Position numbers and translations under genes: made by a program. Of a DNA stretch of 14,640 bases, positions 1-10,499 are shown piece by piece. Each line of letters starts with the position of its first letter. The stretch's first letter is position 1. The stretch is taken from assembly GCA_012516295.1 (NCBI GenBank), contig JAAYWU010000128.1:1-14640 (forward strand), in the 5' to 3' direction. The notes under the pieces were generated by a model, which was not told where the DNA came from, ran no database searches, and saw nothing but the letters and a program-made list of their open reading frames with translations. Source of the stretch: Clostridiales bacterium. GTDB taxonomy: Bacteria; Bacillota; Clostridia; Oscillospirales; Acutalibacteraceae.

Positions 1-52
1 GGTTGGCTGGGGCTATCTCAACTGTGTCGTAACGCCGTCCCGCGTCGCCCAT
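1..52 (-). CDS. 5' end of an unidentified gene downstream of truA (partial)
   Basis: An ATG at 50-52 lies 2 bases beyond the truA stop codon and opens a frame that stays open for 17 codons to the window edge, reading MGDAGRRYDTVEIAPAN. A strong ribosome binding site (AGGAGGTG, about 8 bases before the ATG) sits inside the end of truA, which argues for a real, translationally linked last or next gene of the ecf-truA operon. The visible peptide is too short to recognise a family. The binding site, spacing and open frame are seen; that it is a functional gene is inference. Confidence 0.6.
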   Translation of the reverse strand, partial: MGDAGRRYDTVEIAPAN

Positions 53-54
53 AC

Positions 55-804
55 TCACTTCACCTCCTCATAATAAACATGATTCAAATACAGGCCGCAG
101 GGCGGCGCGGTCGGCCCGGCTGCTTTGCGGTCCTTGGCTTCGATAATCCGGGGGATATCCTCCGGCTGAAGCTTGCCCTGCGCCACACGCAGAAGGGTTC
201 CCACCATAATGCGAACCATATTGTAAAGAAAGCCGTCGGCTGCCACCGTAAAGGTAACCAGGTCGCCTTCCCGCGCACACTCCGCTTTTGTGACCGTTCG
301 GACCAAATTTCCACGTTCACGCGCGTCCATTGTGCAGAACGAGCTGAAATCGTGCGCCCCCAAAAAGTGGGCGGCGGCTTTGTTAAGCCTGTCCAAATCA
401 AGCGCATACCAGTAATGCAGCGCGCGGTGATTCAAAAAGGGGTTGCGCACGGGATTGTTCCAGATTTGGTAAACATATTCCTTGCCAATACAGGAGTAGC
501 GCGCGTGAAAGTCGGGTGAAACCTCCCGGCAGTCCAGCACCGCGATATCCTCGGGAAGGAAATGATTCAGCGCGCCCAAAAGCCGCGCGCAGGGAATGGT
601 ATGCTCTGTTTTAAGGCTGATGCAGTATTCCCGGGCATGCACGAACGAATCCGTACGGCTGCAGCCCTTAATATCCGGTTTTTCATGGAGCACCCGCACA
701 AGGGCTTCCTGAAATACCTGCTGAACGGAAACGGCGTTTTGCTGGATCTGCCAGCCGTGATAGCCCGAGCCGTCGTAACAAATGGTCAGCAGAAGGTTCC
801 GCAT
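55..804 (-). CDS. truA: tRNA pseudouridine synthase A (TruA)
   Basis: TruA isomerises uridine to pseudouridine at positions 38-40 of the tRNA anticodon stem-loop in the cytoplasm. The 249-residue protein has the family length. It begins with the usual TruA N-terminal strand and G(Y/W)HGWQ-type motif (residues 13-19). The catalytic aspartate lies in SRTDSFVHA at D52. The region around FHARYSCIGKEYVY and the C-terminal FLYNMVRIMVGTLL block are also typical. The usual motif is GRTDAGVHA, so the Ala-Gly after the aspartate is Ser-Phe here. The ATG is preceded by GAGGAG with 7-base spacing. It follows ecfT after a 90-base AT-rich gap with no clear terminator, so it is probably co-transcribed with the ecf genes, an arrangement common in Firmicutes. 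Confidence 0.96.
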   Translation of the reverse strand: MRNLLLTICYDGSGYHGWQIQQNAVSVQQVFQEALVRVLHEKPDIKGCSRTDSFVHAREYCISLKTEHTIPCARLLGALNHFLPEDIAVLDCREVSPDFHARYSCIGKEYVYQIWNNPVRNPFLNHRALHYWYALDLDRLNKAAAHFLGAHDFSSFCTMDARERGNLVRTVTKAECAREGDLVTFTVAADGFLYNMVRIMVGTLLRVAQGKLQPEDIPRIIEAKDRKAAGPTAPPCGLYLNHVYYEEVK

Positions 805-894
805 AACACCGCTCCTCTCTGAAATTTTGTCCAGGACGCCATTCTATCGAAAAAACTGTTCTAGTATTTGAACGGATCTTAAATAAATCATGAA

Positions 895-1710
895 TTAATG
901 CAGAACCGCCGGAAAATACAGGTTGCAGGCAACAACCGCCGCACAGACAACCAGCGAAACAACAACCGCCACCGCGTCCAGCGACGTTGCATGCAGCACC
1001 TTCATTTTGGTTCGGCCCTCGCCGCCGTGGTAGCACCGGCATTCCATGGCCATGGCAAGGTCATATGCCCGCCGGAACGACGAAACGAAAAGCGGAATCA
1101 AAATCGGAATGAGCGCCCGGATGCGCTGCATAAGCCCGCCGCTTTCCATGTCGGCGCCCCTTGCCTTCTGCGCGCTCATGATTTTATCGGTTTCTTCCAG
1201 AAGGGTGGGTACAAAGCGCAGCGCAATCGTCATCATCATGGCGATTTCATGCACCTTGACATGCAGCAGCTTCAGCGGCTTCATAATCCGCTCCAGCGCG
1301 TCGGTCAGCTCGGTCGGGGACGTGGTAAACGTCAGGACGGAGCTGAACAGAATCAGGCTGATGATGCGGATGGTAACAAAGACCGCGTTGGCCACGCCGC
1401 CTGAGGTAATCTGGATAAACCCCCAGCTCCACAGCACGTTTCCGCCCCCGTAAAACAGGTTCAGCACGGAAGTAAAAATCACAACGAATAAAATCGCTTT
1501 CAAGCTCTTGAAATACTGGCTGAGCGGTACGCCGGACAAGAGAAGAATACCGAGAATCAGCACCGACATCGTCAGCAGCCCCTCGAAGTTGGAAGCGACA
1601 AAGATAAATACAATATAAACAAAGGTAAGAATAATTTTCACACGCGGGGCAAGGCGGTGAATAAAGGATTTTCCCGGAATATATTGACCGAGCGTAATAT
1701 CCCTAATCAT
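895..1710 (-). CDS. ecfT: ECF transporter transmembrane protein EcfT
   Basis: EcfT is the integral-membrane scaffold of energy-coupling factor transporters. It joins the two ATPases to interchangeable substrate-binding S components for vitamins and metal ions. The 271-residue protein has hydrophobic segments near residues 25-40, 45-60, 70-87 and 108-128, and one at the C terminus (243-266). Between them lie the cytoplasmic coupling helices. The first ATPase-coupling motif is ARG at 183-185. The second lies in AMECRCYHGGEGRT (221-234), reading CRC where many homologues have ARG or ARC. The start overlaps the end of ecfA2 by 8 bases, which indicates translational coupling. No S component is encoded in the window, so the substrate cannot be named; this fits a shared (group II) module serving S components encoded elsewhere. 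Confidence 0.96.
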   Translation of the reverse strand: MIRDITLGQYIPGKSFIHRLAPRVKIILTFVYIVFIFVASNFEGLLTMSVLILGILLLSGVPLSQYFKSLKAILFVVIFTSVLNLFYGGGNVLWSWGFIQITSGGVANAVFVTIRIISLILFSSVLTFTTSPTELTDALERIMKPLKLLHVKVHEIAMMMTIALRFVPTLLEETDKIMSAQKARGADMESGGLMQRIRALIPILIPLFVSSFRRAYDLAMAMECRCYHGGEGRTKMKVLHATSLDAVAVVVSLVVCAAVVACNLYFPAVLH

Positions 1711-2569
1711 GTTTCCGGTTCCCCTTTCCTAAAAGCGGTATCAATTCTTTTAAAGCCTGCTCGACCGTCAGGGCGGTTTCCACCGGGTAACCCTTCGCCT
1801 TCAATACGGCCATGATTTTGGTAATCTGCGGCACGCGAAGCCCCATTTTTTCCAGCTCCCGGTCGCGCGCGAACACGTTTTCGGTTGTATCAAACATCGC
1901 CGCATGGCCGGAATTCATCACAAGCACGCGGTCCGCTGTGCGGGCGATGTCCTCCATGCTGTGGGATACCAGCAGAATCGTATTGTGCCGTGTTTTATGA
2001 TAGGTGACAATCTGGCTTAACAGCACGTCGCGGCCGCGCGGGTCAAGGCCCGCCGTGGGCTCGTCCAGAATCAGGACATCCGGGTCCATGGCAATCACGC
2101 CGGCGATCGCCACGCGGCGTTTCTCCCCGCCTGAAAGCTCAAACGGGCTTTTTTCAAGCAGTTCCTCTTTTAAACCGACAAATTCGGCAGCCGCGCGCGC
2201 CCGTTTCAGAATTTCGTCCTTGTCCAGCCCCATGTTTCCCGGGCCGAACGCAATATCCTTCAGCACGGTTTCTTCAAAGAGCTGATGCTCCGGGTACTGG
2301 AACACCATGCCCACCTGAAAGCGTACGCTGCGGATTTTCTTCGGGTCCTCCCAGATGTCTTTCCCGTTCAGGAGCACCGCGCCGCTCGTCGGGCGCAGAA
2401 GGCCGTTCAGCTGCTGAATCAAGGTGGATTTTCCCGAACCGGTATGCCCGATAACGCCGATAAACTCGCCCTGCTCAATTGCAATATTTACATTTTCAAC
2501 CGCTGTCTTCTGGAACGGCGTTCCCTGCCCGTAGGTATAGGTTAAATTCTTTGTTTCAATGATCGCCAT
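1703..2569 (-). CDS. ecfA2: ECF transporter ATP-binding protein EcfA2
   Basis: This is the second of the two ATPases that power the ECF transporter at the inner face of the membrane. The 288-residue ABC protein shows Walker [10 protein letters not shown] (41-49), the Q-loop glutamine at about 91 in [10 protein letters not shown], signature LSGGEKRR (145-152), Walker B VLILDEP with the catalytic glutamate at about 170, and the H-loop histidine at about 203 (VSHSMED). The Q-loop context and C-terminal region fit EcfA2 rather than a generic ABC importer. Its ATG lies 14 bases inside the end of ecfA1, and its own end overlaps ecfT by 8 bases. The three genes are therefore tightly coupled. Confidence 0.96.
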
Positions 2570-3431
2570 AAGCTTCTCCTACTGTAGCTTTCTTTAAAAG
2601 CGGTTCCAGCGCCGCAACACATTCCTCAATTGTCAGCGGACAACCCGGTAAATCAAATCCGCTCGCCTTCAAACGGTAAGCCAGTTCCGTTGCCTGCGGT
2701 ACATCCAAGTGATGCTTTTTCAGCAGTTCCACTTGTGAAAACACCTCTTCGGGGGTTCCTTCTGTGAGGATGCGGCCGCTGTCCATCACGATAACCCGGC
2801 CGGCCTGTACGGCCTCATCCATATAATGCGTTATTAAAACAATGGTGATTCCCTTTTCCTTGTTCAGCTTGTGGAGCGTGTCCAGAACCTCCGTACGCCC
2901 GCGCGGGTCAAGCATTGCGGTAGGCTCGTCCAGCACGATGCAGTCCGGCTGCATGGCGATGATGCCCGCGATGGCAATACGCTGTTTCTGGCCGCCGGAC
3001 AGCTTGTACGGCGCGTTCAGCCGAAAATCGTACATTTCCACCGCTTTCAGGGCCTCGTCCACCCTGCGGCGGATTTCCTCCGGAGGAACGCCCAGGTTTT
3101 CAGGGCCGAAGGCCACGTCCTCCTCCACCACGCTCGCAACAAGCTGATTGTCCGGATTCTGCAGCACAAGGCCGACGCGGCGGCGGATTTCATAAAGTAC
3201 GCTTTCGTCCTGCGTATCCATTTTATCAACATATACCTTGCCGCCGCTCGGCAGCAGCATGGCGTTAAAGGTCTTCGCGATTGTGGATTTTCCCGAACCG
3301 TTATGCCCCAAAAGCGCTACAAATTCGCCCTTGCGGATTCCCAGCGAAACGCCGCGGAGCACCTCGTGGCGCTCGGCGGCTTCCGGTTCGTCATAGCTGA
3401 AAGTGATATTTTCCGCATTGATATAATCCAT
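2556..3431 (-). CDS. ecfA1: ECF transporter ATP-binding protein EcfA1
   Basis: First ATPase of the ECF module and partner of EcfA2 in an asymmetric ATPase dimer docked on EcfT. With the start at MDYINAEN the protein has 291 residues. Walker A is GHNGSGKST (42-50), the Q-loop is Q91 in [10 protein letters not shown], the signature is LSGGQKQR (144-151), Walker B is CIVLDEP with E169, and the H-loop is H202. The frame is open upstream to 3704, but that extension runs through the methyltransferase gene and matches no ABC sequence. The ATG at 3429-3431 is preceded by an AGGTAGGA-like ribosome binding site and follows the methyltransferase stop by 23 bases. I therefore chose this start. Confidence 0.96.
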
Positions 3432-3454
3432 TCCAAATCCTACCTGTTTCTCGT

Positions 3455-4318
3455 TTATCGGCTCTCCCAGATTGCGGTGCTTCCACAAGGAAGGACCAGC
3501 CCGCTCCGGGTAACCGGCAGTCCGATTTCGTCCGACGAAATCCGTCCTCCGAATTTTTTCTGAATCAGCACGCCCAGAAGGTATTCCATAACCGCCGGGG
3601 ACAGTCCCGTCGTATAGGAGTTTAAAAGGAAGAACAGCGGATGTTTCGAAAGAATCGGAACGCACAGCTCCACCAGCGCGTAAAGCTGTTCCTCCAGCTT
3701 CCACACTTCGCCGTTCGGGCCGCGCCCATAGGAGGGCGGGTCCATAATAATCCCGTCGTACGTATTTCCCCGCCGGTGCTCCCTCTGCACAAATTTAACG
3801 CAGTCATCGACCAGCCAGCGCACAGGCCGGTCGGAAAGGCCGGACGCGGCGGCGTTCTCCTTCGCCCAGGCAACCATTCCTTTGGACGCGTCCACATGGC
3901 AGACCGCTGCCCCCGCCTTTAAACAGGCAAGGGTTGCCGCGCCGGTGTAGCCGAACAGGTTCAGCACTTTCACCGGACGTTTGGCGCTTTGGATTTTCTT
4001 CATTACAAAATCCCAGTTTACGGCCTGCTCCGGGAAGATACCCGTATGCTTAAAGCCCATGGTTTTGAGCTGGAACGTCAGCTCGCCGTAGCGGATTTTC
4101 CACATCGGCGGTACTTTTTTCATTTCCTGCCAGCTTCCGCCGCCGGTGGACGAACGGTTGTACCGGGCGTTTGCCCCGCGCCACAGCGGATCGTCCTTCG
4201 GCGTATTCCAGATAATCTGCGGGTCGGGCCGGATGAGGATGACATTGCCCCACCGTTCCAGCCTTTCGCCCGCGGACGTATCGATCAGTTCATAATCCTT
4301 CCAGTTTGCAGTTCTCAA
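3455..4318 (-). CDS. class I SAM-dependent methyltransferase (RlmI-like catalytic domain)
   Basis: The 287-residue protein has the Rossmann-type methyltransferase fold of the RlmI/RlmK-like group (PF10672 type). The SAM-binding motif I is [20 protein letters not shown] (118-137). It is followed by an acidic ribose-binding position in HVDASKG (141-147), then DDC at 171-173 and the catalytic-type motif DPPSYGRG (193-200). It lacks the PUA RNA-binding domain of true RlmI, so rRNA as substrate is only a guess. The start is a TTG: the frame has no ATG or GTG between its upstream stop (4373-4375) and this codon. A GTAGGT element lies about 6 bases before the TTG, and the N terminus matches the family pattern ([16 protein letters not shown]). 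It begins 34 bases after the natural end of glmM and leads into ecfA1. Confidence 0.85.
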
Positions 4319-4352
4319 TTTGATACCTACTTTTTCTTCGATTCCGCCTGTT

Positions 4353-5702
4353 TTACGCCAGTCTTTCCCGAATCACGTCGGCTACGGAATTCGCCAGCGC
4401 ACTAATATAATCCGGGTCCTCGCCCTCGACCATCACGCGGAGCAGCGGTTCCGTACCGGAGGGGCGCACGACGATGCGGCCGTTTTCACCCAGTTTCTTC
4501 TTGGCTTGCTCGATGGATTCCTTTACCTTATCATCGGTTTAGAAGCGAAGCTTGCCCTCCGCGCTGACGCCGACGTTGACCATTACCTGCGGGTAGCGCG
4601 TCATCAGGGTGGCAAGGCTCGAAAGCTTCGCCCCCCTGCGGTGTACGATGCTCAAAAGCTGCGCGGCGGTCAGTTCGCCGTCGCCCGTTGTCGCAAAATC
4701 AAGGAAGATGATATGCCCGCTCTGCTCGCCGCCGAAGTTGTAGCCTTCGAGAAGCATTTCCTCCAGCACGTAACGGTCGCCGACCTTTGTGGCGGAAAAT
4801 TTCAGGCCGTTGTCGTCGCAGAAGCGGTTAAAGCCCATATTCGTCATGATTGTGCCGACCACGGTGTTTTTATTCAGCTTGCCGCGGCTTTTCAGATCCG
4901 CGGCACAAATCGCCATCAGGTAATCGCCGTCCACCAACTGACCCTTTTCATCGACCGCAAGGCAGCGGTCCGCGTCGCCGTCAAACGCAACGCCCGCATC
5001 CAGATGGTTTTCCTTTACAAAGGTCATCAGGCTTTCGATATGAGTGGAGCCGCAGTTTTCATTCACATTTACGCCGTTCGGCTGATTCGCCAGCATATGG
5101 CATTCCGCGCCCAGCTCGGTAAACAGCAGTTCCGCCGTACGGCTTGCTGCGCCGTTCGCGCAGTCGATGCCGATTTTCATGCCGTCCAGCGCAAAGGGGA
5201 CGGTACTCTTAATATGATCTACATACTCGCGCACGGTATTCTTCGCCACCGATACGCAGCCGATATCGCCGCCGATCGGGCAGTCCGGCTTCTGCGCATG
5301 GTCGAGCACGATCGCCTCGATCTGCTCCTCCAGCGCGTCCGGAAGCTTGTAGCCGTCGCCGCTGAAAATTTTAATTCCGTTGAATTCACAGGGGTTATGG
5401 CTGGCGGTTAACATTACGCCCGCGTCCGCCTTGTATTTTCCAACCAGGTAAGCGCCCGCCGGGGTCGGGATAACGCCAAGCTGTACAACATTCGCGCCCA
5501 TGGAGCAGAGCCCCGCGGTCATGGCGCTTTCCAGCATATCGGAAGAAAGGCGCGTATCCTTTCCGATCAGGATTTTCGGGTGGCGGCGGTTGTTATCGGT
5601 CAGCACCATAGCGGCTGCGCGGCCGATGTTCATCGCCATTTCGCAGGTCAGCTCGCTGTTTGCAATTCCTCTGACGCCGTCTGTACCAAAAAGTCTTCCC
5701 AT
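4353..5702 (-). pseudogene. glmM: phosphoglucosamine mutase glmM, interrupted by an in-frame TAA
   Basis: GlmM converts glucosamine-6-phosphate to glucosamine-1-phosphate, the step before UDP-GlcNAc for peptidoglycan. The start at MGRLFGTDGVRG (5700-5702) has a GGGAG site; an ATG 18 bases upstream has none. Visible motifs are the phosphoserine loop TASHNP (S101), the metal-binding DGDADR (241-246) and the sugar-binding GGEQSGH. Codon 388 is TAA (4539-4541). The same frame then continues for 61 codons through [18 protein letters not shown] to the phosphate-binding RPSGTEP (413-419) and [10 protein letters not shown], ending at TAA 4353-4355. The whole frame of 449 positions equals the normal family length, and nothing else is damaged. 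As written, translation gives 387 residues lacking domain 4, which should be inactive. The change is probably one base (for example Tyr TAC or TAT to TAA), either a sequencing error or a recent mutation. Confidence 0.93.
4539..4541 (-). other. premature TAA codon within glmM
   Basis: The codon directly follows KLRF and directly precedes TDDKVKES in one continuous frame, so no frameshift is involved. No in-frame ATG, GTG or TTG lies between it and RPSGTEP, so re-initiation could not restore a complete domain 4. The flanking bases show no obvious SECIS-like or readthrough hairpin. Confidence 0.9.
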
Positions 5703-5744
5703 ACTATGAACAACTCCCATTATTGATTAATATAAATTTTGAAA

Positions 5745-5765
5745 GCGGCAACTTTTTTCCGCCGC
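5745..5765 (-). terminator. weak hairpin after ruvB, possible terminator
   Basis: Read on the minus strand, GCGGC and GCCGC are separated by an A-rich 11-base loop and followed by TTTCAAAATTT. It lies about 25 bases beyond the ruvB stop and before glmM. Five base pairs and an interrupted T-tract make it a weak candidate; partial read-through into glmM is plausible. Confidence 0.3.
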
Positions 5766-5788
5766 CGGGAACCGGTATTTTCTATGGA

Positions 5789-6847
5789 TTAAAACAGCTT
5801 CTGCTGACCATCCTCACAGGAAGCCGGAGTTAACCCCAAATGCAGATACGCCGCTTGCGTGGCACAGCGGCCGCGCGGGGTCCGGTTTAAAAATCCGATT
5901 TGCATCAGATAGGGTTCGTAGATATCCTCAAGGGTAACGGCTTCTTCGCCGATCGCAGCCGCAAGGGTTTCCAGCCCGACCGGGCCGCCGTTGTAAAATT
6001 TAATCAGCGCGTTCAGCATGCGCCGGTCGTTCGCATCCAGGCCGATTTCATCAATCTCCAGCCGGTTCAAGCCCTCTTTCGCGGACTCATACGTAATCAC
6101 GCCGCTGCTGATCACCTGCGCAAAATCGCGCACGCGCTTCAAAAGCCGGTTGGCAATACGCGGCGTGCCGCGTGAACGCGAAGCGATTTCCAGAGCACCG
6201 TCCGGTTCAATGGGGATATCCAGAATATTTGCGCTCCGGGTAACAATCTGCGCCAGCTCCTGCGGGGAATACATCTCCAGCCGGAGCACAACGCCGAAGC
6301 GGTCACGCAAAGGCGCGGAAAGCTGACCGGCGCGGGTGGTCGCGCCGACCAGCGTAAACTTTGGAAGCGGCAGATGATAAGAAGCCGCCATCTGCCCCTT
6401 TCCGGTAATAATGTCCAATGCGTAGTCCTCCATCGCGGGGTAAAGGATTTCTTCCACGCTCCGCGACAGGCGGTGCACTTCGTCGATAAACAGAACATCG
6501 CCCGGGTTCAGGTTCGTTAACAAGGCGGCCAGATCCCCCGGCTTTTCAATCGCCGGCCCGGACGTAATGCGAAGGTTTACATTCAGCTCGTTTGCGATAA
6601 TCCCCGCAAGCGTGGTCTTTCCAAGCCCCGGCGGACCGTAAAGCAGCACATGATCCAGCGATTCTTTCCGCTGCTTCGCCGCTTCAATAAAGATCGCAAG
6701 GTTTTCCTTCACCTTTTCCTGCCCGATATATTCTGAAAGCACCTTCGGGCGCAGCGGGTTTTCCACCTCGGCGTCCTCGGGAACGTACTCCGGCGCAACC
6801 ATCCGGTTTTCAAAGTCGTATTCGCTTGTGTTTTCTTCGTAATTCAA
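5789..6847 (-). CDS. ruvB: Holliday junction branch migration ATPase RuvB
   Basis: RuvB forms the hexameric AAA+ motors that pull DNA through the RuvA-bound Holliday junction during recombination and fork repair. The 352-residue protein has Walker A GPPGLGKT (71-78), Walker B LFIDEVH (119-125), sensor 1 in [10 protein letters not shown], the arginine-finger region PLRDRFG, and the C-terminal winged-helix block ending in [16 protein letters not shown]. The start codon is TTG at 6845-6847: in this frame the preceding stop is at 6890-6892 and no ATG or GTG lies between. An AGGAGGGAG site stands 9-12 bases before it. The next in-frame ATG (codon 16) would cut into a variable N-terminal tail and cannot be excluded. 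It is the third gene of the ruvC-ruvA-ruvB operon. Confidence 0.95.
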
Positions 6848-6867
6848 TTTCCGGTTCTCCCTCCTTG

Positions 6868-6887
6868 AAAAAGGGAATTCCCTCTTT
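6868..6887 (-). other. stem-loop between ruvA and ruvB
   Basis: The palindrome GGGAATTCCC (6873-6882) is flanked on the minus strand by AAAGA before and TTTTT after, giving an 8-pair AU-rich stem with an AATT loop. It lies in the 49-base gap between ruvA and ruvB, just before the ruvB ribosome binding site. It could be a weak terminator, attenuator or processing site that lowers ruvB relative to ruvA. The structure is seen; its role is inference. Confidence 0.4.
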
Positions 6888-6896
6888 GATCATTCT

Positions 6897-7499
6897 TTAT
6901 TTCATGCCGCCGCCCATTGCTTTCATCGACAGGCGGATCAGTTCCTCCACAGGAAGAGCCGAATCAAAGCCCGCCACCACCGCGGCGGCCTCTGAGGGCG
7001 AATAGCCAAGCACCGTCAGCGCATTCACCGCCGCATCCGCGTTTGCCGCGGCGGAAGCCGGGCCCGCGGGTGCAAAACCGGCCGGCCCGGTCTGCAAGCC
7101 TTTCACTTTATCCTTCAGTTCAAGAGCAATGCGCTGCGCCAGCTTTGGCCCCACGCCGTTTGCGCGGGTAAGCGCCTTGCTGTCGCCGGTCGCCACCGCC
7201 GCGGCGACCTGTTCCGGAGCCAGTTCGGAAAGGATTGCCAAACCGACCTTCGGCCCTACGCCGCTCACTCCCGTAAGCATTTTAAAGCAGTTAAGCTCCC
7301 TCAGCGTTGCAAAGCCAAACAAATCCAGCGCATCCTCGCGCACATTCAAGTGCGTGTACAGCAGAACCTGCTCCCCGATTTGGGGCAGCGCGCGCTGGGT
7401 GCTGAGCGATGTCAGGCACTTAAACCCGATTCCGCCGCACTCTACCACGGCAATGCCGGGTTCCATATGCGTTAAAATTCCTTTTATACTGTAAAACAT
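6897..7499 (-). CDS. ruvA: Holliday junction DNA-binding protein RuvA
   Basis: RuvA tetramers bind the four-way junction and load RuvB. The 200-residue length is normal. The N-terminal OB-fold starts MFYSIKGIL. Two helix-hairpin-helix motifs follow, at GVSGVGPKVGLAIL and ANGVGPKLAQRIALELKDK. An Ala/Pro/Gly-rich linker (about 138-152) leads to the C-terminal RuvB-binding domain with VNALTVLGYSPSEAAAVV. The ATG has GGGAG about 6 bases upstream. It starts 34 bases after the ruvC stop. Confidence 0.96.
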   Translation of the reverse strand: MFYSIKGILTHMEPGIAVVECGGIGFKCLTSLSTQRALPQIGEQVLLYTHLNVREDALDLFGFATLRELNCFKMLTGVSGVGPKVGLAILSELAPEQVAAAVATGDSKALTRANGVGPKLAQRIALELKDKVKGLQTGPAGFAPAGPASAAANADAAVNALTVLGYSPSEAAAVVAGFDSALPVEELIRLSMKAMGGGMK

Positions 7500-7533
7500 C
7501 TTTTCTCCCGTAACCGACCCATCCGGTCTTTCC

Positions 7534-8049
7534 TTATTTAAAACAATCCGTACGTTTCAGAAGGTTTCGCCTTAAAGCCGAACCGGCCGCCTGTCCGTGG
7601 CAGATCGCCATGGCAAGCGCGTCCGCGGTATCGTCCGGTTTCGGCATTTCCTTCAGGCACAGAAGCCTGCGCGTCATTTCCATTACCTGCGGTTTCAGAG
7701 CCTGCCCGTAGCCGGTAACGGCCATTTTCACCTGTAAGGGCGTATATTCAAAAACTTCAATTCCGGCTTTCTGCGCCGCTAAAAGGATAACGCCCCTTGC
7801 TTCCGCAACCCCGATCGCCGTTTTCTGGTTGTTTTGGAAGTACAGCTTTTCAATCGCCGCGGCATCCGGTTTCCATTGGTTCATCACCTTCGTGAGCGAA
7901 TCATAAATCACCTCAAGCCGGCGGTTAAAATCCTCGCCCGCCTTTGTAACAACCGCGCCATGCTCCAGCGGCTGATAGCGCCCGCGCTGTGCGCGGATAA
8001 CGCCGTAGCCCACAATTGCATAGCCGGGATCAATTCCGAGTATGACCAT
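7534..8049 (-). CDS. ruvC: crossover junction endonuclease RuvC
   Basis: RuvC is the dimeric, metal-dependent nuclease that cuts the Holliday junction after RuvAB branch migration. The 171-residue protein has the RNase H-like fold with the four acidic residues in place: D7 in GIDPGY, E67 in AIEKLYF, and D140 and D143 in DDTADALA. The ATG is preceded by AGGAG with 8-base spacing. It is the first gene of ruvC-ruvA-ruvB and has a candidate extended -10 promoter about 80 bases upstream. I saw no Gram-positive LexA-type box (GAAC-N4-GTTC) in the leader, so SOS control is not supported. Confidence 0.96.
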   Translation of the reverse strand: MVILGIDPGYAIVGYGVIRAQRGRYQPLEHGAVVTKAGEDFNRRLEVIYDSLTKVMNQWKPDAAAIEKLYFQNNQKTAIGVAEARGVILLAAQKAGIEVFEYTPLQVKMAVTGYGQALKPQVMEMTRRLLCLKEMPKPDDTADALAMAICHGQAAGSALRRNLLKRTDCFK

Positions 8050-8129
8050 TGAAAACGCTCCTATATCCCGCTTTTTTCCGCCGCCGAAGCTCTGTCCTTC
8101 CTGCGGCTTGCTTTCATAATATCCGTTTC

Positions 8130-8158
8130 ATTATAGCACATACCCGGGCATTAGGGAA
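8130..8158 (-). promoter_or_regulatory. candidate promoter of ruvC-ruvA-ruvB
   Basis: On the minus strand a perfect TATAAT (8130-8135) is preceded by TGC, forming an extended -10 element. With a 17-base spacer the -35 position holds TTCCCT (8153-8158), a poor match, but extended -10 promoters tolerate this. It would give a leader of roughly 75 bases before ruvC. The rest of the 186-base gap (8050-8235) holds only the ribosome binding site and no recognisable gene. Confidence 0.6.
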
Positions 8159-8235
8159 TAGCGGCCTCCCATTTTACACCTGTGAAGACATCGGTAAAAC
8201 CATCAAAGTTTACTAAGAAAACACAAGATTTTTTA

Positions 8236-8676
8236 TTATATTTTCTTTTCCTGTGTAACGATATGCCAGAGCCGTACAAGGGACGAAACCATAAGCGTTC
8301 CCACGGCGAGCGCCCCGGCAATGCCCAGCGTATGAATTCCCGTTTCGATAAACATTTCATTGTTCCCGATTACGCAGTATTCCATCGTGTAATAGATGCC
8401 GCCGCCGGGAACCATGGGCAGCATCGCCGTGAGCAGAAAGCCGGTAACCGGCATTTTAAATACCCGCGCCATAATCTCCGAATAAACGGATATGGCAATC
8501 GTCGCGACAAAATACTGCATAATATCATTCTGAAGCGGATTGCTGAAAAGGTAGAAAAACCAGCCGATCCCGCCGCCGAGCGAGGCGAAAAGCAGTGTTT
8601 TCCCACGCAGGTTCATGACCGCCCCAAAGGGGATACAGGCGAGAAAAGCCCAAAGGCAGGGTGTAAAATCCGTCAT
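8236..8676 (-). CDS. threonine/serine exporter, small subunit (ThrE_2/YjjB-like)
   Basis: The 146-residue protein is almost entirely hydrophobic helices and resembles the ThrE_2 (PF12821, YjjB-like) half of the split threonine/serine exporter. It has about four to five membrane segments, including AFLACIPFGAVMNL, LLFASLGGGIGWFFYLF, VATIAISVYSEIMARVF and a GFLLTAMLPMVPGGGIYYTM block. The last, with its MVPGGG core, is typical of this domain. It starts 3 bases after the end of the larger subunit, so the two are coupled and probably act as one membrane complex. Amino-acid export is family knowledge; substrate specificity is not visible here. Confidence 0.88.
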   Translation of the reverse strand: MTDFTPCLWAFLACIPFGAVMNLRGKTLLFASLGGGIGWFFYLFSNPLQNDIMQYFVATIAISVYSEIMARVFKMPVTGFLLTAMLPMVPGGGIYYTMEYCVIGNNEMFIETGIHTLGIAGALAVGTLMVSSLVRLWHIVTQEKKI

Positions 8677-8679
8677 TTC

Positions 8680-9444
8680 TTACACCCCCCATATCATGCG
8701 CGACAAAGTCAGCGCGATACCCGCCCCAATGGCGATTGCCGTAGCCACCAGCATGCTCTCGGTAAAGCGGATCAGCCCCGCCATCAGGTCCCCGGCGATA
8801 ATGTCGCGCATGAAGCTGGTGATTGCAATGCCGGGAACCAGGTTCATCAAAGCGCCGATAATCACCTTATCAATATTCAGCGCCATGTCATACTGCGCGG
8901 CATACATAACCAGCGCGGCGGCGGCAAAGCTGGAAACCATGTTCACAAAAAAAGGATTGGCATCAAACTTATTCATATAATGGCAGACGATTTTGATTAC
9001 CGCGCCACAGAACATAGAGCAGAATGCGTCTGAAAAATTACCGCCGAAAAAAAGCGTAAAGAAAAACGCGACCAGCGCGAACATGACAATTTGGAGCCCC
9101 AGCCCGTAAACAGGCCGGTGCTCAATCTGGGCCAATTCACGGCGAACCGTCTTTAAATCGGGCCGCTCGCTGCAAATGCGGCGGCAAAGGGCGTTGCCCC
9201 TTTCCACACGGTCAAGGTTGGTGCTGCGGACGGGAATCCGGCGGATCAGGGTAACCGGCCTGCCCTCGGGTGTAACAATGGTAACGTTAATACAGGTTGG
9301 AATTGCGAAAATCTCACCGGTATTCACCCCATAGGCGCGAAAAATACGCTGCATGGACTCCTCTACGCGATAGATTTCCGCTCCGTTCGAAAGCAGGAGG
9401 CTGCCCACGTCGGTGGTCAGCGTAATCAGCTCGTCGTAATTCAT
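8680..9444 (-). CDS. threonine/serine exporter, large subunit (ThrE/YjjP-like)
   Basis: The 254-residue protein matches the ThrE (PF06738, YjjP-like) family. A soluble N-terminal part of about 105 residues includes LLSNGAEIYRVEESMQRI and VTIVTPEGRPVTLIRRIP. About five membrane segments follow, from about residue 110 to the end, including an NLVPGIAITSFMRDIIAGDLMAG block. The frame opens slightly further upstream at a GTG (9451-9453). I chose the ATG at 9442-9444, which has AAAGGG about 8 bases before it. It is the first gene of a two-gene unit with its own promoter. Confidence 0.88.
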   Translation of the reverse strand: MNYDELITLTTDVGSLLLSNGAEIYRVEESMQRIFRAYGVNTGEIFAIPTCINVTIVTPEGRPVTLIRRIPVRSTNLDRVERGNALCRRICSERPDLKTVRRELAQIEHRPVYGLGLQIVMFALVAFFFTLFFGGNFSDAFCSMFCGAVIKIVCHYMNKFDANPFFVNMVSSFAAAALVMYAAQYDMALNIDKVIIGALMNLVPGIAITSFMRDIIAGDLMAGLIRFTESMLVATAIAIGAGIALTLSRMIWGV

Positions 9445-9479
9445 TCGCAACACCCTTTTATCCTTCTGAACTTTGCCTT

Positions 9480-9508
9480 ATTCTATCATATTTTTAAATC
9501 GCAAACAA
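9480..9508 (-). promoter_or_regulatory. promoter of the threonine/serine exporter genes
   Basis: Minus-strand TTGTTT (9503-9508), an exact 17-base spacer and TAGAAT (9480-9485), with TG at the extended -10 position (TGATAGAAT). It sits directly below the transketolase terminator and about 35 bases before the ThrE start, so it is well placed. Confidence 0.65.
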
Positions 9509-9512
9509 TATG

Positions 9513-9541
9513 AAGGGCGGCCGGAAATTCCGGCCGCCCTT
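9513..9541 (-). terminator. strong hairpin terminator after the transketolase genes
   Basis: Twelve perfectly complementary pairs (AAGGGCGGCCGG and its complement) enclose a 5-base AAATT-type loop. It lies 13 bases after the stop of the transketolase C-terminal subunit. On the minus strand the stem is followed by TTCATATTG, a poor T-tract. The plus strand has TTTT, but no plus-strand gene precedes it. The very stable stem still makes termination likely. Confidence 0.7.
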
Positions 9542-9554
9542 TTAACTGAAATGT

Positions 9555-10499
9555 TTATTTATTGAGAAATTTCTTTACTGCCTCCGCAATATGGCGGGCG
9601 CTGAGTCCAAACTCGTCGAGGAGGTCCACCGCCGGGCCGGAATGGCCGTACACGTCGTTCACGCCGAGCTTCATGACCGGGGTCGGGTATTCCTCGGCCA
9701 GCACGCTGCAAACCGCTTCGCCAAGCCCGCCGATCACGCTGTGCTCTTCCACCGTGATGATCTTTCCGGTTTCCTGCGCCGCCTTCACGATAATCTCGCG
9801 GTCAATCGGCTTGATTGTGTGAATGTTAATCAGCCGGGCGTCAATCCCCTGTTCCGCCAGCGCCTTTACCGCTTCCAGCGCGCGCGACACCATCAGGCCG
9901 GTCGCTATGATTGTAATGTCCTTGCCGTCCTTCAGGGTGATGCCCTTGCCAAGCTCGAATTTGTAATCGTCCCCGTTGTTGAAGCTTTCCACCGCGAGCC
10001 TGCCCAAACGGATATAGACCGGGCCGTAGTGCTCAACCGCCGCTTTGACGGCCGCTTTCATTTCATAGTGGTCCGACGGGTTCAGCACCACCATGCCGGG
10101 GATGGTACGCATCAGGGCGATATCCTCGTTGCATTGGTGGGTCGCGCCGTCCTCGCCGACCGAAATGCCCGCGTGGGAACCCGCAATCTTCACGTTCAGC
10201 TTCGGATAGCCCACCGAGTTGCGCACCTGCTCAAAGGCGCGCCCCGCCGAAAACATTGCGAACGAGGTCGCAAACGGGATTTTCCCGCAGGTCGCCAGCC
10301 CAGCCGCCACGCCGACCATGTCGCATTCTGCGATGCCGCAGTCGATGAAGCGGTCCGGATATGCTTTCTTAAACAGGATGGTTTTCGTTGCTTCCGCTAG
10401 GTCCGCGTCCAGCACAACCATCTGCGGGTATTGATCGGCAAGCTCCTTCAATGCTTCGCCGTAGCTTTCTCTTGTTGCTTTTTTTACCATTTCTGCCAT
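9555..10499 (-). CDS. transketolase, C-terminal subunit
   Basis: This 314-residue protein is the second half of a split transketolase, comprising the pyrimidine-binding and C-terminal domains. The catalytic glutamate is expected at E58 in CGIAECDMVGVAAGLA. The following FATSFAMFSAGRAFEQVRNSVGYPKLNVKIAGSHAGISVGEDGATHQ block is characteristic. With the N-terminal subunit it transfers two-carbon units between sugar phosphates in the non-oxidative pentose phosphate pathway, using thiamine diphosphate. Its ATG follows the partner's TAA with no intervening base, and a GGAGG site lies inside the partner's last codons, which should give equal expression. Related split enzymes with other substrates (DXS-like or transaldolase-linked) exist; transketolase is the best fit. 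Confidence 0.92.
   Translation of the reverse strand: MAEMVKKATRESYGEALKELADQYPQMVVLDADLAEATKTILFKKAYPDRFIDCGIAECDMVGVAAGLATCGKIPFATSFAMFSAGRAFEQVRNSVGYPKLNVKIAGSHAGISVGEDGATHQCNEDIALMRTIPGMVVLNPSDHYEMKAAVKAAVEHYGPVYIRLGRLAVESFNNGDDYKFELGKGITLKDGKDITIIATGLMVSRALEAVKALAEQGIDARLINIHTIKPIDREIIVKAAQETGKIITVEEHSVIGGLGEAVCSVLAEEYPTPVMKLGVNDVYGHSGPAVDLLDEFGLSARHIAEAVKKFLNK

Follow-up and report, generated by a model that had tools for sequence, protein, structure and literature searches.

Does glmM of this draft genome end early in the living cell, or does an assembled sequence only make it seem so? The window, by which we mean the whole stretch of 14,640 nucleotides analysed here, lies on contig 30 of the draft assembly G000 (1,705,181 bases in 387 contigs, 87.32% complete, 4.91% contamination), which is most likely a metagenome bin. 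Read on the minus strand from position 5702, the glmM frame gives 387 residues, meets a TAA at 4539-4541, continues in the same frame for 61 residues and closes at a natural stop (TAA 4355-4353), which adds up to 387+1+61 = 449 positions. The locus is composed as follows.

4353..5702, minus strand: glmM frame with one interruption, 449 positions and a natural stop (frame reading, TIGR01455, match to an intact GlmM)
4542..5702, minus strand: 387-residue product with phosphohexomutase domains I, II and III (PF02878, PF02879, PF02880; TIGR01455 497.2 bits)
4539..4541, minus strand: in-frame TAA, codon 388 of 449, where close relatives have a tyrosine codon (comparison with relatives)
4356..4538, minus strand: domain IV, 61 codons behind the stop (PF00408, E 1.4e-17)
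4446..4466, minus strand: RPSGTEP motif of domain IV, behind the stop (sequence; numbering from alignment)

The earlier note had described a glmM with one abnormal codon, an intact domain 4 after it and a truncated product that lacks this domain, and the description is borne out throughout. Among the matches listed, 119 of 120 homologues are 449 residues long, the very total reached when the same-frame stretch with RPSGTEP (4466-4446) is followed to its natural stop, and matching the frame to the GlmM of an intact relative returns a single internal stop ('1 TAA'). The 387-residue piece holds Pfam domains I-III only and passes the curated cut-off of TIGR01455, the NCBIfam model of GlmM (497.2 bits against 447.55), and the 61-residue piece scores as domain IV. 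As written, the four phosphohexomutase domains are thus not united in one product; since domain IV is intact and in the same frame behind the stop, it is not a chance match. An alternative upstream ATG at 5720 would give 393 residues, and homologues begin at Met 5702. Three near-invariant GlmM residues deviate within the window's 387 residues (68, 83 and 159), and at least three such deviations are present in 7 of the 120 GlmM sequences compared.

A product of 387 residues could fold, but we infer that its enzymatic activity would be poor or absent. Position 419 of chain 7ojr, which we take to be the B. subtilis protein, aligns with residue 422 of P0001, the GlmM of a close relative, and so falls behind the window's stop. 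The part of PMC8573169 that deals with GlmM describes phosphate bound at Arg419 in domain 4.

Around the gene, the window has one extra base at 4350 compared with the two closest relatives, in an A run directly behind the natural stop of glmM. Antisense to glmM lies a 363-residue open reading frame (window 4320-5411, plus strand), and a longer one opposite glmM (473 residues) is open in one of these relatives (G002) as well; such a frame is most likely a by-product of codon usage. A scan of window 3400-5900 for promoters and terminators returned signals about equal to those of shuffled sequence.

Comparison of the codon with close relatives had been proposed in the earlier note, and it yields a sense codon, mostly tyrosine, with TAA absent from every relative examined. 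By GlmM residues the nearest are Caproiciproducens galactitolivorans BS-1 (G002, L044; 98% identity) and C. galactitolivorans YR-4 (G003, L045; 94%), to which the window matches over 9.8 kb at 95.4% and over 10.1 kb at 88.9%, respectively, and both have a tyrosine codon at position 388. The BS-1 protein (P0001) is 98% identical over the 387 residues and has the same frame and the same 449 positions, but tyrosine where the window has a stop. Placed matches were obtained for 116 of 123 loci, several of which are repeats of one genome, and codon 388 is tyrosine in 89 of the 116. TAA is found in two rows, both of them the window's own, and the other 25 comprise one blank at a contig end and 24 with other sense codons, mostly from more distant genomes; a few of these 24 are out of register because their matches break off early, as in L093 (which contains N), L097, L101 and L103. 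At the protein level residue 388 is tyrosine in all 119 proteins of 449 residues among the matches listed. An intact GlmM was matched in 185 of 200 family genomes, and among the 150 matches listed of these 185 the only internal stop in glmM is that of the window. As far as examined, the stop thus appears private to this assembly.

Two sequences in this comparison are unusual in their own right. The 120th listed protein, P0085, is a GlmM homologue of 392 residues without domain IV; it has tyrosine at 388, ends five residues beyond the position of the window's stop and represents four member sequences and one contig of 7,970 bases. In Clostridia bacterium UC5.1-1E11 (L097 3001-4162, BCAA01000008.1) the glmM match spans 1,162 bases, one above the norm of 1,161, with the best piece ending at residue 294, an apparent frameshift in another draft genome.

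A sense codon in the relatives, a conserved frame behind the stop and other isolated stops in a fragmented draft together make it quite probable that the TAA is a consensus error. A base-call or assembly error had also been ranked first in the earlier note, and the lack of any relative with the stop, the fragmented state of the draft and isolated stops in other conserved genes speak for that ranking. According to PMC11017572, assembly error accounts for many of the pseudogenes with internal stops that are seen in bacterial assemblies, and the number of internal stops follows assembly quality. The spurious pseudogenes described there resemble the window's glmM in consisting of an isolated internal stop in an otherwise conserved draft gene; they differ in that those genomes were reassembled from raw reads, whereas the window's glmM is known from its consensus.

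The frequency of such stops elsewhere in the draft was surveyed in 39 readable contigs of G000 including the window (249,958 bases) against 1.18 Mb of BS-1. The forward comparison covered 115 BS-1 open reading frames, 81 of them of at least 250 residues, with 36,730 residues aligned, and the reverse comparison 109 frames of G000 with 33,652 residues; an earlier automatic count (24 versus 23 internal stops) was discarded because it included wrong-frame open reading frames. Raw internal stops number nine in each genome. After case-by-case judgement by hand seven remain in G000 and two in BS-1, or five and two when only genes with a Pfam assignment are considered, so that the contrast of seven to two, resting on hand judging, is suggestive and not proof. 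The seven counted in G000 are listed below.

glmM: codon 388 of 449
RimO: codon 243 of 443
Prephenate dehydrogenase: codon 31 of 278
O-antigen-ligase-like gene: codon 373 of 408, past its domain
421-residue protein without a family
E1-E2 ATPase: at most 15 bases from a contig end
990-residue open reading frame: at most 15 bases from a contig end

The stops in RimO, prephenate dehydrogenase, the O-antigen-ligase-like gene and the 421-residue protein lie in L130 (G000:C7), L124 (G000:C1), L239 (G000:C36) and L131 (G000:C8), respectively, and the O-antigen-ligase-like gene carries a frameshift as well, with several amino acids changed next to its stop. Left uncounted in G000 were L215_12968 (codon 23 of 1027) and L208_11177 (codon 33, ahead of a permease domain). 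The two counted in BS-1 are in DUF6530 (codon 40) and in an MBOAT fragment whose gene is broken in G000 as well. Its seven uncounted stops are three in one frame ahead of a FeoA domain, one ahead of 3-dehydroquinate synthase, one ahead of arginase and two in frames without a Pfam domain.

The kind of base change separates the two genomes further. All seven counted stops of G000 (TAA three times, TGA three times and TAG once, the last at a contig end) differ from BS-1 by one transversion, and both counted stops of BS-1 are C to T transitions. Under natural spectra, derived from substitutions private to the window or to BS-1 and from codon usage (in 614 open reading frames of at least 250 residues, some of them in a wrong frame), transversions are expected to make up 35-42% of nonsense changes; under a flat spectrum, in which every base change has the same probability, the share is 85%. 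With the natural spectra, seven out of seven has a chance of 0.0006 to 0.002, with the flat spectrum one of 0.31; restricting the set to the five stops away from contig ends gives 0.005 to 0.0125 and 0.43, respectively. An all-transversion set of stops, being unlike the natural spectrum, favours error over mutation, with the reservation that the test was selected post hoc.

Against the error reading stand the clean appearance of the window and the equal raw counts of nine and nine. In a three-way alignment of window positions 1-9830, in which gene names and borders follow our own reading, private substitutions fall on codon positions 1, 2 and 3 in numbers of 22, 8 and 105 in the window and 35, 10 and 166 in BS-1, and alignment gaps lie between genes or at the very end of a gene. 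A window ridden with errors is not supported by this natural-looking pattern, which resembles that of BS-1, and errors there must be few.

This low error rate is also the first argument for the foremost alternative, a genuine and private nonsense mutation of recent date, carried by the sampled cells or a fraction of their population. It would leave a GlmM of 387 residues without domain IV, in carriers that would be dying or kept alive by another phosphohexomutase. We regard such a mutation as unlikely. The earlier note had offered a second mutase as a way out, and this holds in so far as G000 encodes three further phosphohexomutases (L002, L003, L004), but none of them is a GlmM by curated score: they reach 144.7, 164.6 and 114.1 bits on TIGR01455 against the cut-off of 447.55, and they also fall below the cut-off of the archaeal GlmM model. 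A search of PDB sequences with L004 gave no match at E 1e-30. In B. subtilis, PgcA has a secondary phosphoglucosamine mutase activity, which lends the bypass some credit; GlmM is essential, however, and even an improved PgcA is no substitute for this essential role, according to the part of PMC6797236 concerned with PgcA. Moreover, among the family matches listed no relative shows a stop that removes domain IV, and stops made by transversions only misfit the natural spectrum of a mutational origin.

A special form of this alternative, suggested by analogy, is that a real stop leaves an enzymatically dead GlmM cut after domain III which may still restrain the c-di-AMP cyclase, with glucosamine-1-phosphate supplied by one of the three other phosphohexomutases. 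The model is GlmM-F369 of B. subtilis, which in the account of it given in PMC8573169 ends after domain III, as the window's 387-residue product would, and, although devoid of domain 4, remains able to bind and inhibit the cyclase CdaA. GlmM-F369 is a deliberate laboratory construct and not a natural allele (PMC8573169), and we consider the corresponding state in this organism very improbable.

More improbable still is translation of the TAA into an amino acid, through a suppressor tRNA or a programmed event, both of which had been named as options in the earlier note. Read-through would account for the intact and conserved domain IV behind the stop. The absence of a stop at codon 388 from every relative examined, with tyrosine or other sense codons in its place, argues against recoding, and read-through is left unsupported. 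The six other counted stops of G000 are TGA three times, TAA twice and TAG once (at a contig end), and since stops of different kinds occur no single codon has been reassigned; on these two grounds recoding was rejected. A whole-genome search of G000 gave 21 tRNA matches, 20 of them typed by ARAGORN, and a UUA anticodon is found in none of the 20, a list without glycine, phenylalanine, lysine and other tRNAs; both tRNA-Tyr have the anticodon GTA. All 22 contigs under 3,000 bases among the G000 contigs fetched read as N. With several amino acids missing from the tRNA list and one match untyped, this negative for the suppressor option is weak, and nothing points to a suppressor.

The untyped match (L184 1501-1563, minus strand; G000:C105:6360-6422) has 63 bases and scores 37.5 bits, over the gathering score; it lacks a normal anticodon loop, is absent from the ARAGORN output and can be assigned no type, and it is either a degraded tRNA gene or a further artefact of assembly. 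The tRNA-Thr and tRNA-Tyr genes form a pair that occurs twice in G000, at L252 5018-5306 (G000:C49) and L264 379-667 (G000:C280), with 94% identity over 292 bases, which reflects either genuine duplication or a bin that mixes two strains.

Least credible of all is a split gene, in which translation would restart behind the stop and yield domain IV as a small protein of its own. Both pieces are conserved, but the earliest candidate start codon (ATG, GTG or TTG) in frame behind the TAA is the GTG at 4469-4467, immediately before RPSGTEP, and a protein started there would lack the beginning of domain IV. No relative split in this way is found among the 150 family matches listed.

The TAA would accordingly be best understood as a single wrong base in a low-quality draft consensus, with an ordinary and intact glmM beneath it. 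In the living cell, codon 388 would then most likely be tyrosine, giving a normal GlmM of 449 residues that would convert glucosamine-6-phosphate to glucosamine-1-phosphate for UDP-GlcNAc. If the stop is such an error, it serves as a warning that a single erroneous base in a draft genome can be enough for an essential gene to seem inactivated. Were it real and fixed, the enzymatic and regulatory roles of GlmM would be separated in a bacterium, and an essential step towards wall precursors would be bypassed.
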